A stretch of 64,000 nucleotides of DNA from Sphingopyxis sp. (GTDB lineage: Bacteria; Pseudomonadota; Alphaproteobacteria; Sphingomonadales; Sphingomonadaceae). Where the stretch lies: NCBI GenBank assembly GCA_016793775.1, contig JAEULK010000034.1, positions 1 to 64,000 on the forward strand, written 5' to 3'. Each line of letters begins with the position of its first letter. Position 1 is the stretch's first letter. The notes under the pieces were generated by a model. That model was not told the origin of the DNA and made no database searches. It was given only the letters and a program-made list of their open reading frames with translations. The translations under genes and the position numbers were made by a program. Of this stretch, positions 37,599 to 53,078 are shown piece by piece.

Positions 37599-38558
37599 TC
37601 AGATCGATTCGCCGCTCAATCGCTGGCAGATCATGTCGAGCTGGTCGAGCGAGGCGAATTTCAGCGTCAGCGCGCCCTTGCCCCCGCCGGCATAATGGAT
37701 CGCGACGCCGATCCCCAGCAGTTCGGACAGATGCCGCTCGACCGCGACGATGTCGGGGTCGCGCCCGCCGTCCAGGCTCTTATACTCGAGCGGCGCCTTG
37801 CGCCCGCCGCCCTTTTCGGCGCGCACCAGCGCCTCGACCGCGCGCACCGACAGGCCTTCCTTGACGATCTTGCGCGCCAGCCCCTCGGCGCCCTCGGCCC
37901 CGATCAGCGCGCGCGCATGCCCCATCGCCAGCGACCCGTCGCCGACCAGCGCCTGCACGCTCGCGGGCAGCTCGAGCAGCCGCATCAGGTTCGCGACATG
38001 GCTGCGCGACTTGCCGACCAGCTTGGCCAGCGCCTCCTGGCCATGCCCGAAATCGTCGATCAGCTTGCGATACGCCCCCGCCTCTTCGATCGCGTTCAGG
38101 TCCTGGCGCTGGATATTCTCGACCAGCGCGATCTCATAGGTCGCCGCATCGTCGAGCGCGCGCACGAGCGCGGGAATCTGATGCAGCCCGGCGCGCTGCG
38201 CCGCCCGCCACCGCCGCTCGCCCGCCACCAGCTGATACCCCGCGCCATCCGGCGCCGCGCGCACGATGATCGGCTGGAGCAGGCCCCTCGCGGCGATCGA
38301 ATCGGCCAGCTCGGCGATCGCGCCCTCGTCGAAATGGCGGCGCGGCTGGCCGGGCAGCGGGCGGATCGCGCTCACCGCGACATGCTGCACCGAATCGCCA
38401 CTCGCCGGCGCGGGCGAGGCCCCGCCGGGCGACGCCAGCACCGGCGCCTCGACCGCGGCATCGCCGAACAGCGCGTTCAGCCCGCGTCCCAGTCCCGAAG
38501 GCCGCTTCTTCGCCGGAATCGCCGCCGAAGCGCCAGTTTCTTCTTTATTATCCGTCAT
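37599..38558 (-). CDS. parB: chromosome-partitioning protein ParB
   Basis: A 319-residue CTP-dependent DNA clamp that loads at parS. The N-terminal CTPase region has GERRWRAAQRAGL and LVENIQRQDLNAIEEA. The central helix-turn-helix (KLVGKSRSHVANLMRLLELP) binds parS and the C-terminus is the dimerisation domain. It begins immediately after the parA stop. Three parS sequences lie 0.9-4.4 kb away. ParB also loads SMC and guides ori segregation. Confidence 0.95.
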   Translation of the reverse strand: MTDNKEETGASAAIPAKKRPSGLGRGLNALFGDAAVEAPVLASPGGASPAPASGDSVQHVAVSAIRPLPGQPRRHFDEGAIAELADSIAARGLLQPIIVRAAPDGAGYQLVAGERRWRAAQRAGLHQIPALVRALDDAATYEIALVENIQRQDLNAIEEAGAYRKLIDDFGHGQEALAKLVGKSRSHVANLMRLLELPASVQALVGDGSLAMGHARALIGAEGAEGLARKIVKEGLSVRAVEALVRAEKGGGRKAPLEYKSLDGGRDPDIVAVERHLSELLGIGVAIHYAGGGKGALTLKFASLDQLDMICQRLSGESI

Positions 38559-39344
38559 TTAAGCTGCCTTGCGGATGTTGGGCAAGCGGTCGATCAGTTC
38601 GCGTGCCAGCGCGATATAGGCCGCCGACCCGGCGCAGCGATGATCGTAGATCAGCGCCGGCAGGCCGTGGCTCGGCGCCTCGGACAGCCGCACATTGCGC
38701 GGGATCACCGTCTCGAACACCACCGGGCCCAGCACCTCGCGCACATCGTCGGAGACCTGGTCGGTCAGCCGGTTGCGGCGATCGAACATGGTCAGCGCGA
38801 CGCCCAGGATCGACAGCCGCTGGTTGAACTTGCCGCGCACGCGCTCGACCGTGGTCAGCAACTGGCTCAGCCCTTCGAGCGCGAAAAATTCGCATTGCAG
38901 CGGCACGATCAGCGATTCGGCGGCGATCAGCGCGTTGAGCGTCAGCATGCCCAGCGACGGCGGGCAATCGATCAGGCAGATGTCCCACTGCCCCGCCTGC
39001 GCGTCGGTCATCGCCTGCTGCAACTTGTGCAGCCGATCCTTATATTCGATCAGCTCGATCTCGGCGCCCGACAGGTCGACCGTCGCGGTGACGATGTCGA
39101 GCCGCGGCACCGCGGTCGGAATCGCGCATTCGGCCAGCGTCGCCTCGCCGCGCAGCAAATCGTAGCTCGACAAGATACGCTGCGCCTGTCCGATGCCCAG
39201 CCCGGTCGAGGCGTTGCCCTGCGGGTCGAGGTCGACGATCAGCGTGCGCCAGCCCGTCGCCGCAAGCGCGGTCGCCAGGTTGATCGCGGTCGTCGTCTTG
39301 CCGACCCCGCCCTTCTGGTTCGCCACCGCGATACGGATCATCAT
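38559..39344 (-). CDS. parA: chromosome-partitioning ATPase ParA
   Basis: A 261-residue Walker-type ATPase with the deviant Walker A motif KGGVGKTTT at 11-19, switch DLDPQGNAST and Walker B-like CLIDCPPSLG. It binds DNA nonspecifically with ATP and moves ParB-parS complexes. Two consecutive ATGs exist (39344 and 39341). The first overlaps the rsmG stop as ATGA; the second is better spaced from AGGA. The rsmG-parA-parB order is that of the alphaproteobacterial origin region. Confidence 0.95.
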   Translation of the reverse strand: MMIRIAVANQKGGVGKTTTAINLATALAATGWRTLIVDLDPQGNASTGLGIGQAQRILSSYDLLRGEATLAECAIPTAVPRLDIVTATVDLSGAEIELIEYKDRLHKLQQAMTDAQAGQWDICLIDCPPSLGMLTLNALIAAESLIVPLQCEFFALEGLSQLLTTVERVRGKFNQRLSILGVALTMFDRRNRLTDQVSDDVREVLGPVVFETVIPRNVRLSEAPSHGLPALIYDHRCAGSAAYIALARELIDRLPNIRKAA

Positions 39345-39997
39345 TTTCCTCGCTGCTTTGTCGCGATTTTTCCGACGCCGACCAAAATCTGGCTTGTCGC
39401 GTCGGTGCGGCTCTGTTCCACGTGAAACATTCTCTGCCATGTCGGCGGCAGCAACGCCAGTTCCTTAACCGCATTTCGCCCCTTTGGCAGCAGCCAGCGC
39501 GTCGATTCGGTGGAAAAACGCGCGGATAAGTCGATCAGCCGGTCGAGCGGCGCAAAGGCCCGCGCGCTGATTGTCCCCGCCGGCCGTGTCGATACCCGCT
39601 CCAATGGCGCCTCGGCCACCTCGACATGCCCCAGCCCCAGTTCGCCCGCGACATCGCGCAAGAATTCGCACCGCCGCTTGCGCGATTCGACGAGCAACAT
39701 CGGCCGCTCCGACAGGATCGCGACCACCAGCCCCGGCAACCCCGGCCCGCTCCCCAGATCGACCCAAAGCCCTTCGCCGTCTGTATCGAGCGCGAGCAAT
39801 TGCGCGCTGTCGGCGATATGCCGCACCCAAAGCGTCGGGATCGTCGACGCCGCAATCAGATTCTGCCGGTCATTCTCGGCAACGAGCATCGCCGCAAACC
39901 GCTCGAGCCGCGCCCATTGCTCGGCCGTCGGCGCAAATGCCTGCATCAGCCAGTCGCGCGCAGCGCCTTCATCTTCCAATAGTTCGGTTGCCGCCAC
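39341..39997 (-). CDS. rsmG: 16S rRNA (guanine-527-N7)-methyltransferase RsmG (GidB)
   Basis: A 218-residue SAM-dependent methyltransferase that makes m7G527 in 16S rRNA; its loss gives low-level streptomycin resistance in other bacteria. SAM loop DLGSGPGLPGLVVAIL, then LVESRKRRCEFLRDV and SARAFAPLDRLIDL. GTG 39997 is the only start giving the usual length. A parS site falls inside the gene and encodes MFHVEQ near the C-terminus, a peptide often seen in RsmG for that reason. parA follows by overlap. Confidence 0.92.
   Translation of the reverse strand: MAATELLEDEGAARDWLMQAFAPTAEQWARLERFAAMLVAENDRQNLIAASTIPTLWVRHIADSAQLLALDTDGEGLWVDLGSGPGLPGLVVAILSERPMLLVESRKRRCEFLRDVAGELGLGHVEVAEAPLERVSTRPAGTISARAFAPLDRLIDLSARFSTESTRWLLPKGRNAVKELALLPPTWQRMFHVEQSRTDATSQILVGVGKIATKQRGK
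39414..39429. promoter_or_regulatory. parS site 1 (in rsmG)
   Basis: TGTTCCACGTGAAACA matches the bacterial parS consensus TGTTNCACGTGAAACA exactly. It is embedded in rsmG codons, as in other species. Confidence 0.92.
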
Positions 39998-40877: not shown

Positions 40878-42749
40878 TTAAGCCGCACGCCGCTTGCTGT
40901 GCACCAGGATCGCGGTCAGCGCCGCGGGGGTTACCCCGTCGATCCGCCCCGCCTGTCCCAGCGTCTCGGGCCGCGCGCGGGTCAGCCGCTCGACCATCTC
41001 GCGCGATAGCCCGCCGATTGCGGCATAGTCGAGCGCCGGGTCGAGCAGGATCGCCTCGTTCGCCGCGAGCGAGCGCAGCTCGGCCTCCTGCCGCGCGATA
41101 TAGGGCGCATAATGCGCGTCCTCGGCCAATTCGGCGAGGATCGTCTCGTCGATCGCGGCGAGTTCGGGCTCGAGTAGCGCCAGCGTCGCCAATGTCACCC
41201 CGGCGTATCGCAGCAGGTCGATCCGCCGCCGTGCCGCGCCGTCACCCGGCAGCGCCAGCCCGATCGCGGCATAATCGGCACTCGTCACCGGCACCTCGAG
41301 CAAAGCCGCCGCCCGCGCCCGCTCGGCCAGACGCGCGTCGAACAGCGCGGCGGTCGCCGGCCGTACGAGTCCCAGCGCGATCCCCTTGGGGGTCAGCCGC
41401 GTCGCGGCATTGTCGGCGCGCAGCCGCAGCCGGTACTCGGCGCGCGCGGTGAGCATCCGGTACGGCTCGCTCACCCCCTGCAGCACCAGATCGTCGACCA
41501 TCACCCCGATATAGGATATGGACCGGTCGAGGATCAGCGGATCGCGCCCCTGCACCGCGAGCGCCGCATTCGCCCCCGCGACCAGCCCCTGCGCCGCCGC
41601 CTCCTCATAGCCGGTGGTGCCGTTGATCTGCCCCGCGCACCACAGCCCGCCGAGCGCGCGCACCTGCAACGTCCGGTCGAGCGCGCGCGGGTCGATATGG
41701 TCATATTCGACCGCATAGCCCGGCACCACCATCTCGACCGTCTCAAGCCCTTCCATCGTGCGCAACATGCTCAGCTGCACATCGGCGGGGAGCGAGGTCG
41801 AAATGCCGTTCGGATAGACGAGCACCGAATCGAGCCCCTCGGGCTCGAGAAACACCTGATGCCCGTCGCGGTCGGCGAAGCGGTGGATTTTGTCCTCGAT
41901 CGACGGGCAGTAGCGCGGCCCCGCCGCGCCGATCGCCCCGGTGAACAAGGGCGAGCGGTCGAGATTCGCTGCGATGATCGCGTGGCTCTCGCTATTGGTG
42001 CGCGTAATCGCGCAGAAAATCTGCGGTACCGTCCGTGCATTGTTCCACGTGGAACAGGTCCAGCTTGCGCCTTCGGCGCTGTCCGACGGCTGCTCGGCGA
42101 GCCGCGCCCAGTCGATCGTGCGCCCGTCGAGCCGCGGCGGCGTCCCGGTCTTGAGCCGCGCCATCGGCAGGTCGGCGGCGCGCAACTGCTCGGCCAGCCG
42201 ATGCGCCCCGGCCTCGCCGATGCGCCCGCCCTCCATCCGTTCCTCGCCGCGGAACAGCCGCCCGCCGAGAAAGGTGCCCGTCGCGAGCACGACGGCACCG
42301 GCGGTCAGCTTGGTGCCATCGCCAAGCTCCAGCCCCGCAACGCGCGAACCGTCCTCCGACAGGATCAGCGCCGCGGCCTCACCCTCGACGACGGTGATGC
42401 CCTCTTCGGCGGCGAGCAGGTCCTGGATCGCCTGCCGATAGAGTTTCCGGTCGGCCTGGATGCGCGGGCCCTGCACCGCCGCGCCCTTCGATGCGTTGAG
42501 CATCCGGTAGTGTATTGCCGCGCTATCGGCCGCGCGCGCCATCCACCCGTCGAGCGCATCGACCTCGCGCATCAGATGCCCCTTGCCCAGCCCCCCGATC
42601 GCCGGGTTGCACGACATCGTCCCGATCAGCGCCGGGTCGAAACTGACCAGCGCAACCGACGCGCCGAGCCGCGCCGCAGCCGCGGCCGCCTCGGTCCCGG
42701 CATGCCCACCGCCGACGACGATGACATCATATGTTGCGCTGCTGTGCAT
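40878..42749 (-). CDS. mnmG: tRNA uridine-5-carboxymethylaminomethyl modification enzyme MnmG (GidA)
   Basis: A 623-residue flavoprotein that, with MnmE, builds the cmnm5 group on wobble U34 of certain tRNAs. FAD motif [15 protein letters not shown] at residues 8-22, then [41 protein letters not shown] and [19 protein letters not shown] 42749 is the canonical start. A parS site inside the gene encodes CSTWN. A parS and a palindrome separate it from mnmE. Confidence 0.95.
42041..42056. promoter_or_regulatory. parS site 2 (in mnmG)
   Basis: TGTTCCACGTGGAACA is a perfectly palindromic parS-type sequence inside mnmG. It differs from site 1 by one base. Confidence 0.9.
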
Positions 42750-42918: not shown

Positions 42919-42934
42919 TGTTCCACGTGGAACA
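42919..42934. promoter_or_regulatory. parS site 3 (after mnmE)
   Basis: TGTTCCACGTGGAACA, identical to site 2, ends exactly where the mnmE stop codon begins. Confidence 0.9.
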
Positions 42935-45761: not shown

Positions 45762-47348
45762 ATGGTGCACATCCCGCGCTGGATCGCCATCCCGGTCCTG
45801 ATCGCCGCGATCATCCTTGCCGGGTGGTGGGCACCGGCGCGCTGGACCCTGCTCCTCTGGGTGCCGCTGCTGCTGATCGCTTTCTACGATGCGCTCCAGC
45901 GCCGCCATTCGCTACGCCGCAACTATCCGCTGATCGCCCGCATGCGCTGGCTGTTCGAGGCGCTACGCCCCTTCCTCTACGCCTATGTCGTCGAAAGCCC
46001 GCTCGACGGGCGACCCTTCGCGCGCACCGAACGCGACCTCGTCTATGCGCGCGCCAAGGGCGACCTCGACGCGCACCCCTTCGGCACCGAACTCGACGTC
46101 TATTCGGACGAATATGAGTGGATGAGCCATAGCATGGCGCCGACCCCGCATGGCGACCGCGGCGCGCGCGTCACCGTCGGTACCGCGCAATGTTCGAAAC
46201 CCTATCAGGCGGCGCTGCTCAACATCTCGGCGATGAGTTTCGGTTCGCTCAGCGCCAATGCGATTGAGGCGTTGAACCTCGGCGCCAAAATGGGCGGCTT
46301 CTATCACGACACCGGCGAGGGTGGGCTCAGCCCCTATCATCGCAAACATGGCGGCGACATCGTGTGGGAACTCGGCAGCGGCTATTTCGGCTGCCGCGAC
46401 CGTGCCGGCCATTTCGACCCCGCGCGCTTCGCCGACGTCGCGCAGGCCGATCAGGTCAAGATGATCGAAATCAAGCTCAGCCAGGGCGCCAAGCCCGGCC
46501 ATGGCGGCGTCCTGCCCGGGCCAAAGGTCAGCGCCGAAATTGCCGCGACGCGCGGCGTGCCCGAAGGCCAGGACTGTATCTCGCCCGCCGCCCATTCGGC
46601 CTTTGCGACCCCGGTCGGGATGCTGGTCTGGGCCGCGAAGCTGCGCGAGTTGTCGGGGGGCAAGCCGGTCGGCATCAAATTCTGCGTCGGCCAGCCGCAC
46701 GAAGTCTATGCGGTGATGAAGGCGATGATCGAGACCGGCATCCGGCTCGACTATATCGTCGTCGACGGCGCCGAGGGCGGCACCGGCGCGGCGCCAGTCG
46801 AATTTTCGAACAGCCTCGGCATGCCCCTGCGCGAAGGGCTGATCTTCGTGCGCAACGCGCTCGTCGGCTGCGGGCTGAAGGAAGAGGTGCGCCTCGCCGC
46901 CTCGGGCAAGGTCCATTCGGGCGCCGGCCTCGCGATCAACGCCGCGCTCGGCGCCGACTGGTCGAACGCCGCGCGCGCCTTCATGTTCTCGCTCGGCTGC
47001 GTCCAGTCGCTGCAATGCCACACCGACAAATGCCCGACCGGGGTTGCGACGCAGGATCCCGGCCGCCAGCGCGGCCTGGCCGTCGAGGACAAGGCCGCGC
47101 GCGTCCGCCGTTTCCAGGCGGCGACGGTGAATGCGCTCTGGGACATCAGCGGCGCGATGGGGCTCGAAACGCCCTGGCAGATCATGCCGCATCACCTTCA
47201 CGAACGGCTCAATTCGGCGCGATCCGACTCGATCGACCGCATCTATAAATTCTACGAACGCGGCGTGCTGCTCGACGATCCCGGATCGGTGGCGAGCGCG
47301 CGCTACTGGGCGATGGCCCGCGCCGACAGCTTCCGCGCGGCGGCCTAG
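45762..47348 (+). CDS. FMN-binding glutamate-synthase-family protein
   Basis: A 528-residue protein. Two N-terminal hydrophobic segments (about residues 7-20 and 23-40) anchor it in the membrane. A glutamate-synthase FMN domain follows: ALLNISAMSFGSLS, KMGGFYHDTGEGGLSPYH, IEIKLSQGAKPGHGG, DYIVVDGAEGGTGAAP. A C-x5-C-x4-C cluster (CVQSLQCHTDKCPTG) resembles the [3Fe-4S] site of GltB. It lacks the glutaminase and C-terminal domains, so it is not a complete glutamate synthase; the reaction is unknown. It ends in a CTAG overlap with the convergent DUF1489 gene. Confidence 0.85.
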   Translation: MVHIPRWIAIPVLIAAIILAGWWAPARWTLLLWVPLLLIAFYDALQRRHSLRRNYPLIARMRWLFEALRPFLYAYVVESPLDGRPFARTERDLVYARAKGDLDAHPFGTELDVYSDEYEWMSHSMAPTPHGDRGARVTVGTAQCSKPYQAALLNISAMSFGSLSANAIEALNLGAKMGGFYHDTGEGGLSPYHRKHGGDIVWELGSGYFGCRDRAGHFDPARFADVAQADQVKMIEIKLSQGAKPGHGGVLPGPKVSAEIAATRGVPEGQDCISPAAHSAFATPVGMLVWAAKLRELSGGKPVGIKFCVGQPHEVYAVMKAMIETGIRLDYIVVDGAEGGTGAAPVEFSNSLGMPLREGLIFVRNALVGCGLKEEVRLAASGKVHSGAGLAINAALGADWSNAARAFMFSLGCVQSLQCHTDKCPTGVATQDPGRQRGLAVEDKAARVRRFQAATVNALWDISGAMGLETPWQIMPHHLHERLNSARSDSIDRIYKFYERGVLLDDPGSVASARYWAMARADSFRAAA

Positions 47349-47746
47349 ATCAGACTGAGTTCGGCGAGTTCGCGATAAAGTTCTGGCGGCAGCGTGCCGA
47401 TCCCGTCGCCTTCATCGACACCCCTGGGCGCATCGGCTTCCGTCAGATAGCGCCACCCCTGATGTGCGCGCTTCGGCTGCGGGTGAATGCGCTCAAGCAG
47501 CGCAACGCAAACGATGTCTATCCGCCCGTCGTCGCGATCCTCGAACCGCAGGATTTCGACCCGCCCCACCAGCGTATGTTTCACGATGAAATACAGCTTG
47601 CCGCCGATCAATTCGTCGGCACGTTTCGGCTTGAATCGCGTCGTGAAACGCACCTCGCCGCCTTCAGCCCGCATCGCAATACGCGATACCAGCGAAGAAT
47701 AGTCGGGACAGCCGACGGCGACGCGGGTCATGTGAAGAGCAGTCAT
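47345..47746 (-). CDS. DUF1489 family protein
   Basis: A 133-residue protein of the alphaproteobacterial DUF1489 family: MTRVAVGCPDYSSL opening, FTTRFKPKRADELIGGKLYFIVKHTLVGRVEIL core, HQGWRYLTEADAP end. The family is conserved but unexplained. Its stop shares CTAG with the convergent glutamate-synthase-like gene. Start 47746 is assumed; the second Met at 47731 fits the family equally well. Confidence 0.85.
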   Translation of the reverse strand: MTALHMTRVAVGCPDYSSLVSRIAMRAEGGEVRFTTRFKPKRADELIGGKLYFIVKHTLVGRVEILRFEDRDDGRIDIVCVALLERIHPQPKRAHQGWRYLTEADAPRGVDEGDGIGTLPPELYRELAELSLI

Positions 47747-47809
47747 ATTCGAAAAATAGGAAGCAGATACGCCCAGCCAAGATCGGCAGGCAAAATCTCG
47801 CAGGATAGC

Positions 47810-48301
47810 CTAGCCAACAGCTGGAAAGGCAAACTCCGGCTGCTCCACGACCTTCAATCCCATGTCTCCACGCAGTTCAGTATGAAGGTTATCCAAATCT
47901 ATAATGAACGAGAAGGTGAGTTGGCCGCTTTTACACATATCAATCAATATGTTGGGGTCCTTCTTAAGGTAGACGGAGTCCCCGCTAACGACGAGATATC
48001 TCACCACGCCTTCCTTGTCCTCTAGCGACGTTTCATCTGCGGACCATTTCATCTTCTGAAAATTTGATAGAGACTTCTTAAGGTTAGCGACCGAAGCACC
48101 GGAATCTAGAAGCCGCTTTATCGCCTTAAGAACAAGAATGTCTCGAAAATCATATCTGCGCTTCTTTCCACGACGCTTTCCGTCCTTTCGTGACGCAACA
48201 AACACTCCTGATCGTTGGAGATAATCGAGCATCGCGACAGATTTGAACCCCGCAAGTTTGGCGGCCACCTTTGCTTCGCAGGGAACAATAATAATAGTCA
48301 T
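47810..48301 (-). CDS. MerR-like helix-turn-helix protein on an AT-richer islet
   Basis: A 163-residue protein. The N-terminal half contains a winged-HTH-like pattern: FKSVAMLDYLQRSGVFVASRKDGKRRGKKRRYDFRDILVL, then AIKRLLDSGASVANLKKSL. This is the MerR arrangement of HTH, basic wing and second helix pair. The C-terminal 60 residues are unlike known effector domains. Base composition and codon use are more AT-rich than the flanking genes. The start lacks an obvious ribosome site. A regulator of unknown target is likely. Confidence 0.7.
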   Translation of the reverse strand: MTIIIVPCEAKVAAKLAGFKSVAMLDYLQRSGVFVASRKDGKRRGKKRRYDFRDILVLKAIKRLLDSGASVANLKKSLSNFQKMKWSADETSLEDKEGVVRYLVVSGDSVYLKKDPNILIDMCKSGQLTFSFIIDLDNLHTELRGDMGLKVVEQPEFAFPAVG

Positions 48302-48455
48302 GCTCAGAACTATGATTTGGAATTATTTAAAATCCAACAAGATTCACAAAAATTGGCCCGGCACCGTACAAATTGTGGTTACCGCTTATTTGACATACAA
48401 GATGTTGTTGGGGAATAAGGTGCGCGCAACTTCGCTAGGAAGGAGGAATAAGCCG

Positions 48456-48623
48456 ATGTACTTCGAAAAATATCAGCAAGCTGGCCAATGGCGCTGGCGA
48501 TTGAAAGGCGCCAATCACGAGATCGTCGCCTCGGGCGAGTCATACATTTACGAGCGTGACTGCGACCATGCGATCGATCTCGTGAAGGGTACCAACAGCA
48601 ACACGCCGGTCTACCGACGCTAA
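48456..48623 (+). CDS. YegP/DUF1508 domain protein
   Basis: A 55-residue protein consisting of one DUF1508 (YegP) unit: MYFEKYQQAGQWRWRLKG, ANHEIVASGESYIYERDCDHAI, then VKGTNSNTPVYRR. The fold is a small beta-beta-alpha module of unknown function. Start ATG 48456 follows GGAGGAATAAGCC; upstream in-frame codons (48243-48455) lack such a signal and were not included. A terminator follows. Confidence 0.85.
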   Translation: MYFEKYQQAGQWRWRLKGANHEIVASGESYIYERDCDHAIDLVKGTNSNTPVYRR

Positions 48624-48648
48624 CGCGTACAGATCGAACATAAACAAA

Positions 48649-48683
48649 GGGCCGGGGGATTCAACATCTCCCGGCCCATTTTT
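48649..48683 (+). terminator. intrinsic terminator after yegP-like gene
   Basis: GGGCCGGGGGAT (48649-48660) pairs with ATCTCCCGGCCC (48666-48677) apart from one mismatch, followed by TTTTT. It ends rightward transcripts. Confidence 0.8.
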
Positions 48684-48705
48684 AGTCGTTTAACCTATCA
48701 GGCAT

Positions 48706-49431
48706 TCAGCCGAACAGCGTCCCGACCCCGACGCTCGGATCGATCCAGCCTTCGTAGATCATCTTGACCGCGACATAGACGATCACCGCCAGGCCGACAT
48801 AGGCGATCCAGCGGTACCGCTCGATATATTTGGCGATGATGTTCGCCGCGAGGCCCATCAGCGCGACGGCAAAGATCAACCCGACAATCAGGATTCCCGG
48901 ATGCTCACGCGCCGCACCGGCGACCGCGAGCACATTGTCGAGGCTCATGCTGACATCGGCGACCGCGACCGCCCAGGCCGCACCGGCGAAGCTCTTGGCG
49001 GGCTTCAGGCCCGATTGCTCGTCGCCTTCGATTTCGGGCGATCCGTGCGATTGGCCGACATGGCGCAGTTCGCGCCACATTTTCCAGGCCACCCAGATCA
49101 ACAGCAATCCGCCGACGAAGATCAGCCCGACGATCTGCATCAACTGGGTTACGACGAGCGCGAAGGCGATGCGCAGCACCAGCGCCGCCAGCACGCCGAT
49201 CAGTATCACCTTCTTGCGCTGTTCGGCGGGCAGGCCCGCAGCAAGCGCGCCGACGACGATCGCATTGTCGCCGGCGAGCACGAGGTCGATCATCAGCACC
49301 TGCAGAAAGGCCGCGAAAGCCGCCGGCTCAGTGATGTTCGAGAAATCCTTGACGATCGCGTCCCAGATTCCAGCCGGGCCGCCAAATCCGCCCGCAGCGG
49401 CGCCAGCATGGGCAATCAGGTCAAAAATCAC
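48706..49431 (-). CDS. TerC-family integral membrane protein
   Basis: A 241-residue membrane protein with about seven helices. Diagnostic acidic motifs are LVLAGDNAIVVG in helix two and VSMSLDNVLAVAG in a later helix, the paired Asp residues of TerC proteins thought to bind metal ions. TerC relatives take part in tellurite resistance or manganese export. Here it is a lone gene, so metal handling is inferred. GTG 49431 overlaps the ABM-domain stop (GTGA). Confidence 0.88.
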   Translation of the reverse strand: MIFDLIAHAGAAAGGFGGPAGIWDAIVKDFSNITEPAAFAAFLQVLMIDLVLAGDNAIVVGALAAGLPAEQRKKVILIGVLAALVLRIAFALVVTQLMQIVGLIFVGGLLLIWVAWKMWRELRHVGQSHGSPEIEGDEQSGLKPAKSFAGAAWAVAVADVSMSLDNVLAVAGAAREHPGILIVGLIFAVALMGLAANIIAKYIERYRWIAYVGLAVIVYVAVKMIYEGWIDPSVGVGTLFG

Positions 49432-49721
49432 AGCGGGTCTCCGAAATAGCCGACCGTTGGAATCGGGTCATAAAAGGGGTGCAACAGCGCGCGCCACTGT
49501 TGATAGCGATCCGATCCGCGAAATCCATCCCGATGATCTTCGACCGACCGCCATCGCGCCAACAGCAGATAAGGTTGTCCGCTGGCTGTCGGGCGGCGAA
49601 TTTCGAGCGAAATAAATCCGGGCGAGGCCTCGATCAGTGGCCTTGCCTTCGCGACCGCCGCCTCGAACGCCGCTTGGCTGCCCGCACGCACGGGAAGCAA
49701 GGCATGTTCGAGCAGGGCCAT
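49428..49721 (-). CDS. antibiotic-biosynthesis-monooxygenase-fold protein
   Basis: A 97-residue protein of the ABM dimeric alpha/beta barrel family: EHALLPVRAGSQAAFEAAVAKARPLIEASPGFISLEIRRP, then YLLLARWRSVEDHRDGFRGS. Many homologues are small heme-degrading or quinol monooxygenases; the catalytic type here is not clear. It lies between terC (GTGA overlap) and rho. Confidence 0.82.
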   Translation of the reverse strand: MALLEHALLPVRAGSQAAFEAAVAKARPLIEASPGFISLEIRRPTASGQPYLLLARWRSVEDHRDGFRGSDRYQQWRALLHPFYDPIPTVGYFGDPL

Positions 49722-49730
49722 CGCGGCAGT

Positions 49731-50987
<1,257 letters not shown>

Positions 50988-51632: not shown

Positions 51633-52655
51633 CTATCCCCGCACACGTTTGATCAGTTGCTCGACATGCGCGATCGGGGTGTCGGGCACGATGCCATGGC
51701 CAAGATTGAAGATATGGGGACGCGAGGGGAAGGCCGCAAGGATGCGGGTGATCGCGGCATCGAGCGCCTCGCCCCCCGCAACGAGCGCGAGCGGGTCGAG
51801 ATTGCCCTGGACCGGCAGATGCGCTGGCAGATTGGCATCGGCCCACGCCGGATCGACGGTCTCGTCGAGCCCGATCGCATCGGCGCCGACTTCATTCGCA
51901 TAGGCGGGCAATTTGCCACCGGCGCCTTTAGGAAAGCCGATGATCGGTGTGTCCGGATGCAGGGTCTTAAGGCGGCGGACGATCTCGGCATTGGGGGCGA
52001 TCACCCAACGCTCGAATTGTGCGGGTGACAGGCTTCCCGCCCAGCTGTCGAACAATTGCACCGCCTCGACGCCGTTTTCGATCTGCCCCGACAAATAGGT
52101 GACGCTGAGATCGACGATCGCATCGATGATCGCCTGGAAGGCCGCCGGATCGCCGAACGCCATCCGCCGTGCCGCGGCCTGGTCCTTCGACCCCGCACCT
52201 GCGATCATATAGGTGGCAACCGTCCACGGGCTTCCTGCAAAGCCCAGGAAGGTCGTCTCGCCCGGTAGCGCGCCCGCGACGCGCGCCACGGTGGCATAGA
52301 CGGGGTCGAGCCGCTGCGGTGCCGCCGCGAGCGAGGCCAGCGCGCTGTCGACCAGCGGCGGCGCGAGCCGCGGCCCTTCGCCGGCCTCGAACCACAGATC
52401 CTGCCCCAGCGCATGTGGGATGACGAGGATGTCGGAAAAGAGGATCGCGCCGTCGAAACCGAAACGGCGGATCGGCTGCAACGTCACCTCGGCGGCCGCC
52501 TCGGGATCGTAGCACAGCTCGAGGAACCCGCCCTTGGTTTCGCGGAGGGCGCGGTATTCGGGAAGGTAGCGCCCGGCCTGACGCATCAGCCATAGCGACG
52601 GTCGCTCCTGCCGCACCCCGCGCAGCGTCGCGAGCAGGCTCTTGTGTGACGCCAT
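51633..52655 (-). CDS. hemE: uroporphyrinogen decarboxylase
   Basis: A 340-residue enzyme that removes four acetate carboxyls from uroporphyrinogen III to give coproporphyrinogen III. Signature LWLMRQAGRYLPEYR near residue 21 holds the substrate-binding Arg. AILFSDILVIPHALG carries the catalytic Asp, and GFAGSPWTVATY and VQLFDSWAGSLSPAQFE follow. It is the leftmost gene next to oriC, as in Caulobacter. Its start lies about 24 bases from an AT-rich stretch. Confidence 0.96.
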   Translation of the reverse strand: MASHKSLLATLRGVRQERPSLWLMRQAGRYLPEYRALRETKGGFLELCYDPEAAAEVTLQPIRRFGFDGAILFSDILVIPHALGQDLWFEAGEGPRLAPPLVDSALASLAAAPQRLDPVYATVARVAGALPGETTFLGFAGSPWTVATYMIAGAGSKDQAAARRMAFGDPAAFQAIIDAIVDLSVTYLSGQIENGVEAVQLFDSWAGSLSPAQFERWVIAPNAEIVRRLKTLHPDTPIIGFPKGAGGKLPAYANEVGADAIGLDETVDPAWADANLPAHLPVQGNLDPLALVAGGEALDAAITRILAAFPSRPHIFNLGHGIVPDTPIAHVEQLIKRVRG

Positions 52656-52678
52656 GGCGCGGTCCCTCTTTCTCTTCC

Positions 52679-52697
52679 ATTATAAATATAAGAATAT
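52679..52697. other. AT-rich candidate DNA-unwinding element
   Basis: ATTATAAATATAAGAATAT is the most AT-rich stretch of the oriC region. It lies 24 bases upstream of hemE, so it may be the unwinding element, the hemE promoter, or both. Confidence 0.5.
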
Positions 52698-52824
52698 GGT
52701 GGTGGTTTGTTGGCGGGCGAAGAAGGCGGCTTTAGGCAGCGCCGCCGCCTTTGCCAACAGCTTGACTCGCCGCCGCACCATCTTTGCTGCGGAGTCGGAA
52801 GGAGCATCCCCATTCTTCACAGCC

Positions 52825-52833
52825 TGTGGATAA
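52825..52833 (-). promoter_or_regulatory. DnaA box (exact)
   Basis: TGTGGATAA, the reverse complement of TTATCCACA, lies in the middle of the oriC region. Confidence 0.85.
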
Positions 52834-52844
52834 AGCTGCGCCGC

Positions 52845-52853
52845 TGTGGACAA
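52845..52853 (-). promoter_or_regulatory. DnaA box (near-consensus)
   Basis: TGTGGACAA, i.e. TTGTCCACA on the other strand, twelve bases after the first box and in the same orientation. Confidence 0.7.
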
Positions 52854-52925
52854 GCCATGGGGCGGAATCGACGCGACCGGGGATGAATCCACAGTCCCGA
52901 TTACCCCCCGCGCTTGTCCGGAACC

Positions 52926-52934
52926 TTATCCACA
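52926..52934 (+). promoter_or_regulatory. DnaA box (exact, opposite orientation)
   Basis: TTATCCACA, facing the boxes at 52825 and 52845. A weaker GAATCCACA lies at 52885-52893. Confidence 0.85.
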
Positions 52935-53078
52935 GCCCCCAAGATCGTCGCCCCCGCGAAGGCGGGGACCGCCATCGGTTTAGACAACGCCGCTGAGTAA
53001 AGTGGCCAGCGGCCCCCCGCCTTCGCGGGGGCGACGGTTGCTGTTGCCTTTTCACGCGTTGCATCGGAAAGCTGGGCC

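Follow-up and report, generated by a model that had tools for sequence, protein, structure and literature searches.

Gene neighborhood of the hemE/PPDK-regulator gap

The window, a stretch of 64,000 nucleotides from a draft Sphingopyxis sp. genome (3,928,115 bases in 106 contigs; the contig of the locus is 72 kb long), contains a gap of 423 bp (positions 52656-53078) between two divergently transcribed genes: hemE on the left (51633..52655, minus strand; Pfam URO-D) and the gene for a PPDK regulator on the right (Kinase-PPPase, PF03618; 53079..53891, plus strand). A preliminary description of this DNA had read the gap as a chromosomal origin set within the gene order rho-hemJ-hemE and PPDK-regulator-maf-aroE-coaE-dnaQ. 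Pfam domains bear out this order, with Rho, UPF0093, and URO-D on the left flank and Kinase-PPPase, Maf, shikimate dehydrogenase, CoaE, and an RNase_T exonuclease on the right. The UPF0093 gene stands at the hemJ position, and we take it to be hemJ. Beside rho, positions 47000-50000 have a lower G+C content (∼0.56) and encode a MerR-type regulator and a TerC-type membrane protein. The dnaA gene is on another contig, outside the window (G000:C53:29067-30395).

We took advantage of the PPDK-regulator protein to pick 80 relatives, the nearest of which are mostly Sphingopyxis with at most 98% identity. All 80 have hemE and the PPDK-regulator gene side by side and divergent, 300 to 970 bp apart. 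A search of 40 genomes from across the order gave 38 matches; among the best 30 loci of these (own included), hemE was divergent in 29, and the record of the thirtieth (L260) starts inside the locus. The comparisons below use 48 Sphingopyxis-group gaps, consisting of the window and L002-L048, some of which are metagenome assemblies or are named only to family or higher, together with 33 loci from other genera.

DnaA boxes and the AT-rich stretch

All three boxes of the preliminary description, two exact and oppositely oriented and one near-match, are present. The exact TTATCCACA boxes lie at 52825..52833 (minus strand) and 52926..52934 (plus strand); each is exact in 40 of the 48 Sphingopyxis gaps and within one mismatch in 47, counted for the plus-strand box at its aligned place. 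The third, TTGTCCACA at 52845..52853 (minus strand), is within one mismatch of TTATCCACA in 44/48. These three are the only strong boxes in the gap, and a weak box-like site, TTCTTCACA, is found at 52813..52821 (plus strand; at most two mismatches to TTATCCACA in 44/48). A further candidate, GAATCCACA at 52886, had at least two mismatches in all 48 gaps; a GANTC site within it is the better reading. The Caulobacter W-box TCCCCA is missing from 29 of the 48 Sphingopyxis gaps and from 10 of the 33 other gaps, and several of the other-genus loci have zero or one box with the same motif.

Exact boxes occur seven times in the 3.93 Mb of the genome, two of them in the gap, and a reversed control pattern occurs 11 times, indicating that clustering, and not abundance, is the signal. 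Across the window, sites within one mismatch of TTATNCACA numbered 15 against 8.0 expected, a count reached in 1 of 100 shuffles. Only four 300-bp windows on the 72-kb contig hold three boxes (at most one mismatch), and these overlap one another and all lie at the gap. The same was seen in PET50, a closed Sphingopyxis sp. chromosome, where the sole 300-bp windows with at least three boxes in 1.875 Mb, scanned piece by piece and hence exclusive of windows spanning the joins, were four overlapping ones at the same gap.

The AT-rich stretch of the preliminary description could also be confirmed. It adjoins hemE at 52667..52698, where 30-bp windows reach 80% A+T (the peak within the gap starts at 52667-52669), and it represents a candidate unwinding element. 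There is one other equally AT-rich spot in the contig (starts 48304-48325). Across genomes, the composition of the stretch is kept while its letters vary.

A fixed core and a variable edge

Measured from the start of hemE to where the last plus-strand box ends, 47 of the 48 Sphingopyxis gaps span 279 to 286 bp and the remaining one (L045) spans 256 bp. This length constancy points to a proposed core origin at 52656..52940, which begins at hemE and closes shortly beyond the last DnaA box, its right edge. The SD of the core length is 4.0 over all 48 genomes, and the remainder up to the PPDK-regulator gene measures 56 to 206 bp with an SD of 35. Insertions are located in this variable edge beyond the last box. 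In the window, the edge holds a 91-bp palindromic repeat (52946..53036) with perfect inverted ends of 22 bp, outside the core. At least 39 further similar places exist in the genome, counted among the best 40 of 158 candidates, and blastn over the 81 gaps showed the repeat family to be common to the window, L016, and L035. By eye, three other gaps (L012, L025, and L036) carry inverted repeats of other kinds at this position. Eleven bases separate the 91-bp repeat from the last DnaA box.

Within the core, the best-kept block reads TTTGCCAACAG..TTGACTC, with TTGACTC present in 48/48 Sphingopyxis; in the window it is TTTGCCAACAGCTTGACTC, at 52750..52768. The form ACAGNTTGAC is found in 41 of the 48 Sphingopyxis gaps and in 26 of the 33 other-genus loci. 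This block could represent an IHF-like site or the -35 element of a leftward hemE promoter. A strict IHF site was found in none of the 48 Sphingopyxis gaps and none of the 33 others; a relaxed form (YAA-N4-TTGAYW) is present in all 48 Sphingopyxis gaps and in 1/33 others. The leftward promoter-like arrangement TTGGCA-N16-18-TAA occurs in 47/48 and 5/33, respectively.

parABS and strand polarity around the gap

The window encodes parB (37599-38558, minus strand; TIGR00180 above cut-off) and a parA-like gene (38559-39440, minus strand), whose ParA/MinD-type matches all fall below cut-off. Three parS-like sites accompany them: one at 39414..39429 with a single mismatch to TGTTTCACGTGAAACA, in parA/rsmG, and two perfect palindromes with two mismatches each, at 42041..42056 and 42919..42934. 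Of these two, one falls within mnmG and one in the interval from mnmG to mnmE. The parB gene, the parA-like gene, and three of the four genomic parS-like sites lie 10 to 15 kb from the gap. In each of three genomes, three of four parS-like sites (at most two mismatches) were 7 to 14 kb from the boxes, and a reversed parS control pattern gave 0, 0, and 1 sites in these genomes.

The preliminary description had predicted a minimum of cumulative GC skew at the locus, and this holds only approximately: the minimum falls near the site in PET50 and in Sphingorhabdus sp. 109, but it is about 50 kb off in PET50, and the window shows no sign change. The skew of the window is mostly slightly negative to the left and right of the gap and makes no turn over the 19 kb that remain of the contig; on the dnaQ side, the local skew is wrong in PET50 as well as in the window. 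For PET50, we used 80 samples of 20 kb covering 42% of the chromosome; the skew curve did not close (net +3525 over the samples), and we therefore detrended it. The minimum sample then ends at 3,297,500, the second lowest at 3,345,000; the box is at 3,350,428. Reading 495 kb in full placed the minimum at 3,300,501, nearly tied by 3,210,501 (50 and 140 kb from the box), and there is another, shallower low around 2.87 Mb. The cumulative count of the FtsK-type octamer GGGNAGGG is lowest at the pieces starting at 3,265,001 and 3,277,501. GC skew and octamers are both lowest 50 to 75 kb from the gap. Forward and reverse octamers number 150/76 on one arm and 81/190 on the other, with the arms split at the origin and at a maximum taken from the same data. 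For Sphingorhabdus sp. 109, sampled at 40 places of 20 kb each, the detrended minimum sample spans 2,610,001-2,630,000 and the box is at 2,598,253, an agreement within the 90-kb sampling step; the undetrended skew is lowest near 0.2 Mb. Its octamers are split 60/14 and 5/56 on the two arms.

The displaced minimum and the missing sign change would fit an alternative in which the array is a DnaA-binding regulatory site for hemE or the PPDK-regulator gene, or a DnaA-titrating site, with the true origin elsewhere, for example near the skew minimum 50 to 140 kb away; the promoter-like arrangement upstream of hemE would also fit a regulatory role. However, the piecewise scan of 1.875 Mb of PET50, including 495 kb about the minimum, gave no other 300-bp window with three boxes apart from those across piece joins, which it did not cover; the parS-like sites adjoin the gap; and in Caulobacter the origin identified by experiment is flanked by these two genes (PMC1914354, as far as its available text goes). 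We consider such a regulatory or titrating site highly improbable.

We conclude that the locus is very probably (roughly 95%) the Sphingopyxis chromosomal origin (oriC), of the alphaproteobacterial hemE/PPDK-regulator type. This reading, which we draw from sequence features, is supported by the adjacent parABS genes and sites, the skew and octamer polarity of the relatives, the unique box cluster, and the strong conservation. What the DNA shows directly is the box array with its rigid layout and uniqueness, the nearby parS-like sites, and a strand polarity that agrees approximately. At such an origin, DnaA would bind the array at 52813-52934, with its boxes in both orientations, and the resulting complex would melt the AT-rich stretch ∼115 bp away, beside hemE. 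Two forks would leave from the melted stretch, and ParB bound to the parS-like sites 10 to 13 kb away may then segregate the new origins.

Comparison with known origins

The hemE/COG1806 boundary and a set of seven origin criteria, most of which we tried here, are given in the available text of PMC1914354. The position of the origin is already known for Sphingopyxis: the accessible part of PMC4741004 places the S. granuli TFA origin close to hemE and describes, for the genus as a whole, putative DnaA boxes that are conserved and a putative unwinding element, in the same place as here. With the location settled for the genus, the origin finding itself is ordinary. What we add is the rigid core, the fixed GANTC sites, and the comparison of CtrA sites; GANTC sites, the contrast between rigid core and variable edge, and the CtrA comparison go beyond the account of Sphingopyxis oriC in that part of PMC4741004. 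Relative to the other Sphingopyxis origins described there, the present genome has the 91-bp repeat beside the last box.

The Caulobacter crescentus origin, Cori, likewise occupies the hemE/COG1806 gap and has an AT-rich part, DnaA boxes, GANTC sites, and parS nearby, within 8 kb as compared with 10 to 13 kb here (PMC1914354, PMC4285127, PMC4468827, PMC3973325, each in its accessible portion). On the same partial sources, it differs in two respects: the box type is TGATCCACA in Cori and TTATCCACA here, and Cori has five CtrA sites as opposed to none of exact form here. Escherichia coli oriC (in part after the available text of PMC3973325) likewise combines DnaA boxes, an AT-rich unwinding region, and methylation sites, but there the methylated site is GATC, with a different methylase.

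CtrA-type sites

The preliminary description had seen no CtrA-type TTAA-N7-TTAA site and suggested that cell-cycle control may differ from that in Caulobacter. The exact motif is indeed absent from all 48 Sphingopyxis origin gaps, that of the window included (best match there 5/8), as well as from the 29 order-wide origin gaps, own included. Yet the motif is rare in the whole genome, with three sites as compared with 14 for a reversed control, and therefore its absence from the gap alone says little. The host genome does encode ctrA (NF045991, 416 bits, above cut-off), and one of the three genomic sites lies ∼130 bp upstream of it, taking the gene start as aligned to NF045991. It is unlikely that CtrA controls the present origin by way of an exact TTAA-N7-TTAA site within it.

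The other genera differed from this pattern. Five of the 33 loci (L049, L061, L062, L063, and L065) carry an exact site in the origin gap; these are the only exact sites in the 634,071 bases of the 33 loci, and each stands just before a fixed GANTC. Nine more of these loci have a 7/8 match within 45 bases from the start of the conserved block. By record title, the 14 loci with CtrA-type sites belong to Sphingorhabdus, Parasphingorhabdus, or genus-less Sphingomonadales/Sphingomonadaceae, a grouping made without a tree. A pattern of a CtrA-type site with CCGATTC after it gave six matches when searched in 396 genomes from the order. Two (L238 and L239) lie in the hemE/PPDK gap, and in the other four, neither hemE nor the PPDK gene is found within loci of ∼3 kb or less.

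CtrA might still control the Sphingopyxis origin through degenerate or half sites. A 7/8 match is present in 16/48 Sphingopyxis gaps, always starting 20 to 39 bases from hemE, in the AT-rich stretch, and ctrA is present in the host genome; moreover, in Sphingomonas melonis, an influence of CtrA on replication has been shown, even as loss of ctrA harmed neither growth nor viability (PMC8116508, in its accessible part). Against this, the best match in the window's gap is 5/8, and at the positions of the near matches AT-rich sequence alone would be expected to produce them. We regard an origin controlled through such sites as doubtful.

GANTC sites

Four GANTC sites, the target of the methylase CcrM, lie in the core. 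Those at 52764..52768 (GACTC) and 52792..52796 (GAGTC, 25 bp past CAGCTTGAC) are present in 48/48 Sphingopyxis gaps, and those at 52865..52869 and 52885..52889 (both GAATC) in 46/48 and 30/48, respectively. The mean per Sphingopyxis core is 4.38 sites against 1.03 expected, and this 4.3-fold excess is the highest ratio among the 16 palindromic pentamers; the 33 other-genus loci average 3.15 sites per gap against 1.26. Every locus having the block, 41/41 in Sphingopyxis and 26/26 elsewhere (67 of 81 loci), has a GANTC 25 or 26 bp past it, and the seven Sphingopyxis gaps that do not contain the full block keep both of the invariant sites. GcrA and the DUF1153 family, presumably SciP, score above cut-off in the host genome. 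A CcrM-like methylase reaches 598 bits to NF050803, below the cut-off of 830, and has a RAMA domain above cut-off.

These sites could make initiation at this origin sensitive to CcrM methylation, with hemimethylation serving as a timer. Such a role would fit the leading enrichment of GANTC, the three positions kept in 46 to 48 of the 48 gaps, the constant spacing past the block, and the presence of GcrA-family and CcrM-like genes. On the other side, for the present sequence alone the GANTC count was reached in 114 of 5000 shuffles. According to the accessible part of PMC3973325, intergenic enrichment of GANTC is general in these bacteria, and Caulobacter lacking CcrM, whose origin contains GANTC, keeps a wild-type-like profile of DNA content, which weighs against a methylation timer. 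We put this forward as a tentative and rather unlikely proposal.

A more far-reaching version would be a swap of gatekeepers within one family. Several genera share ACAGNTTGAC and a GANTC 25 to 26 bp on; a CtrA-type palindrome lies between the two in loci titled Sphingorhabdus, Parasphingorhabdus, or genus-less sphingomonads, and none does in Sphingopyxis, where ctrA keeps one upstream. Under this scheme, timing in Sphingopyxis would depend on CcrM methylation at the fixed GANTC sites and not on CtrA, which we think quite improbable. Literature joining GANTC, hemE, and oriC was not found, and the listed titles or abstract openings on CtrA in Sphingomonadales and on GANTC at oriC do not mention the fixed GANTC or the difference in CtrA sites. 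The value lies in comparing sister genera whose origins otherwise match but which differ, at one spot, in whether a CtrA-type site is present; this would make the gain or loss of replication control by a cell-cycle regulator testable.

L267 and L268 are two loci of one genus whose hemE/PPDK-regulator gaps of 451 bp are identical at 450/451 positions and contain 13 GANTC sites. None of 5000 shuffles of the L268 gap reached 13, the highest count being 8. L264, which has the same genus label, contains two GANTC sites.
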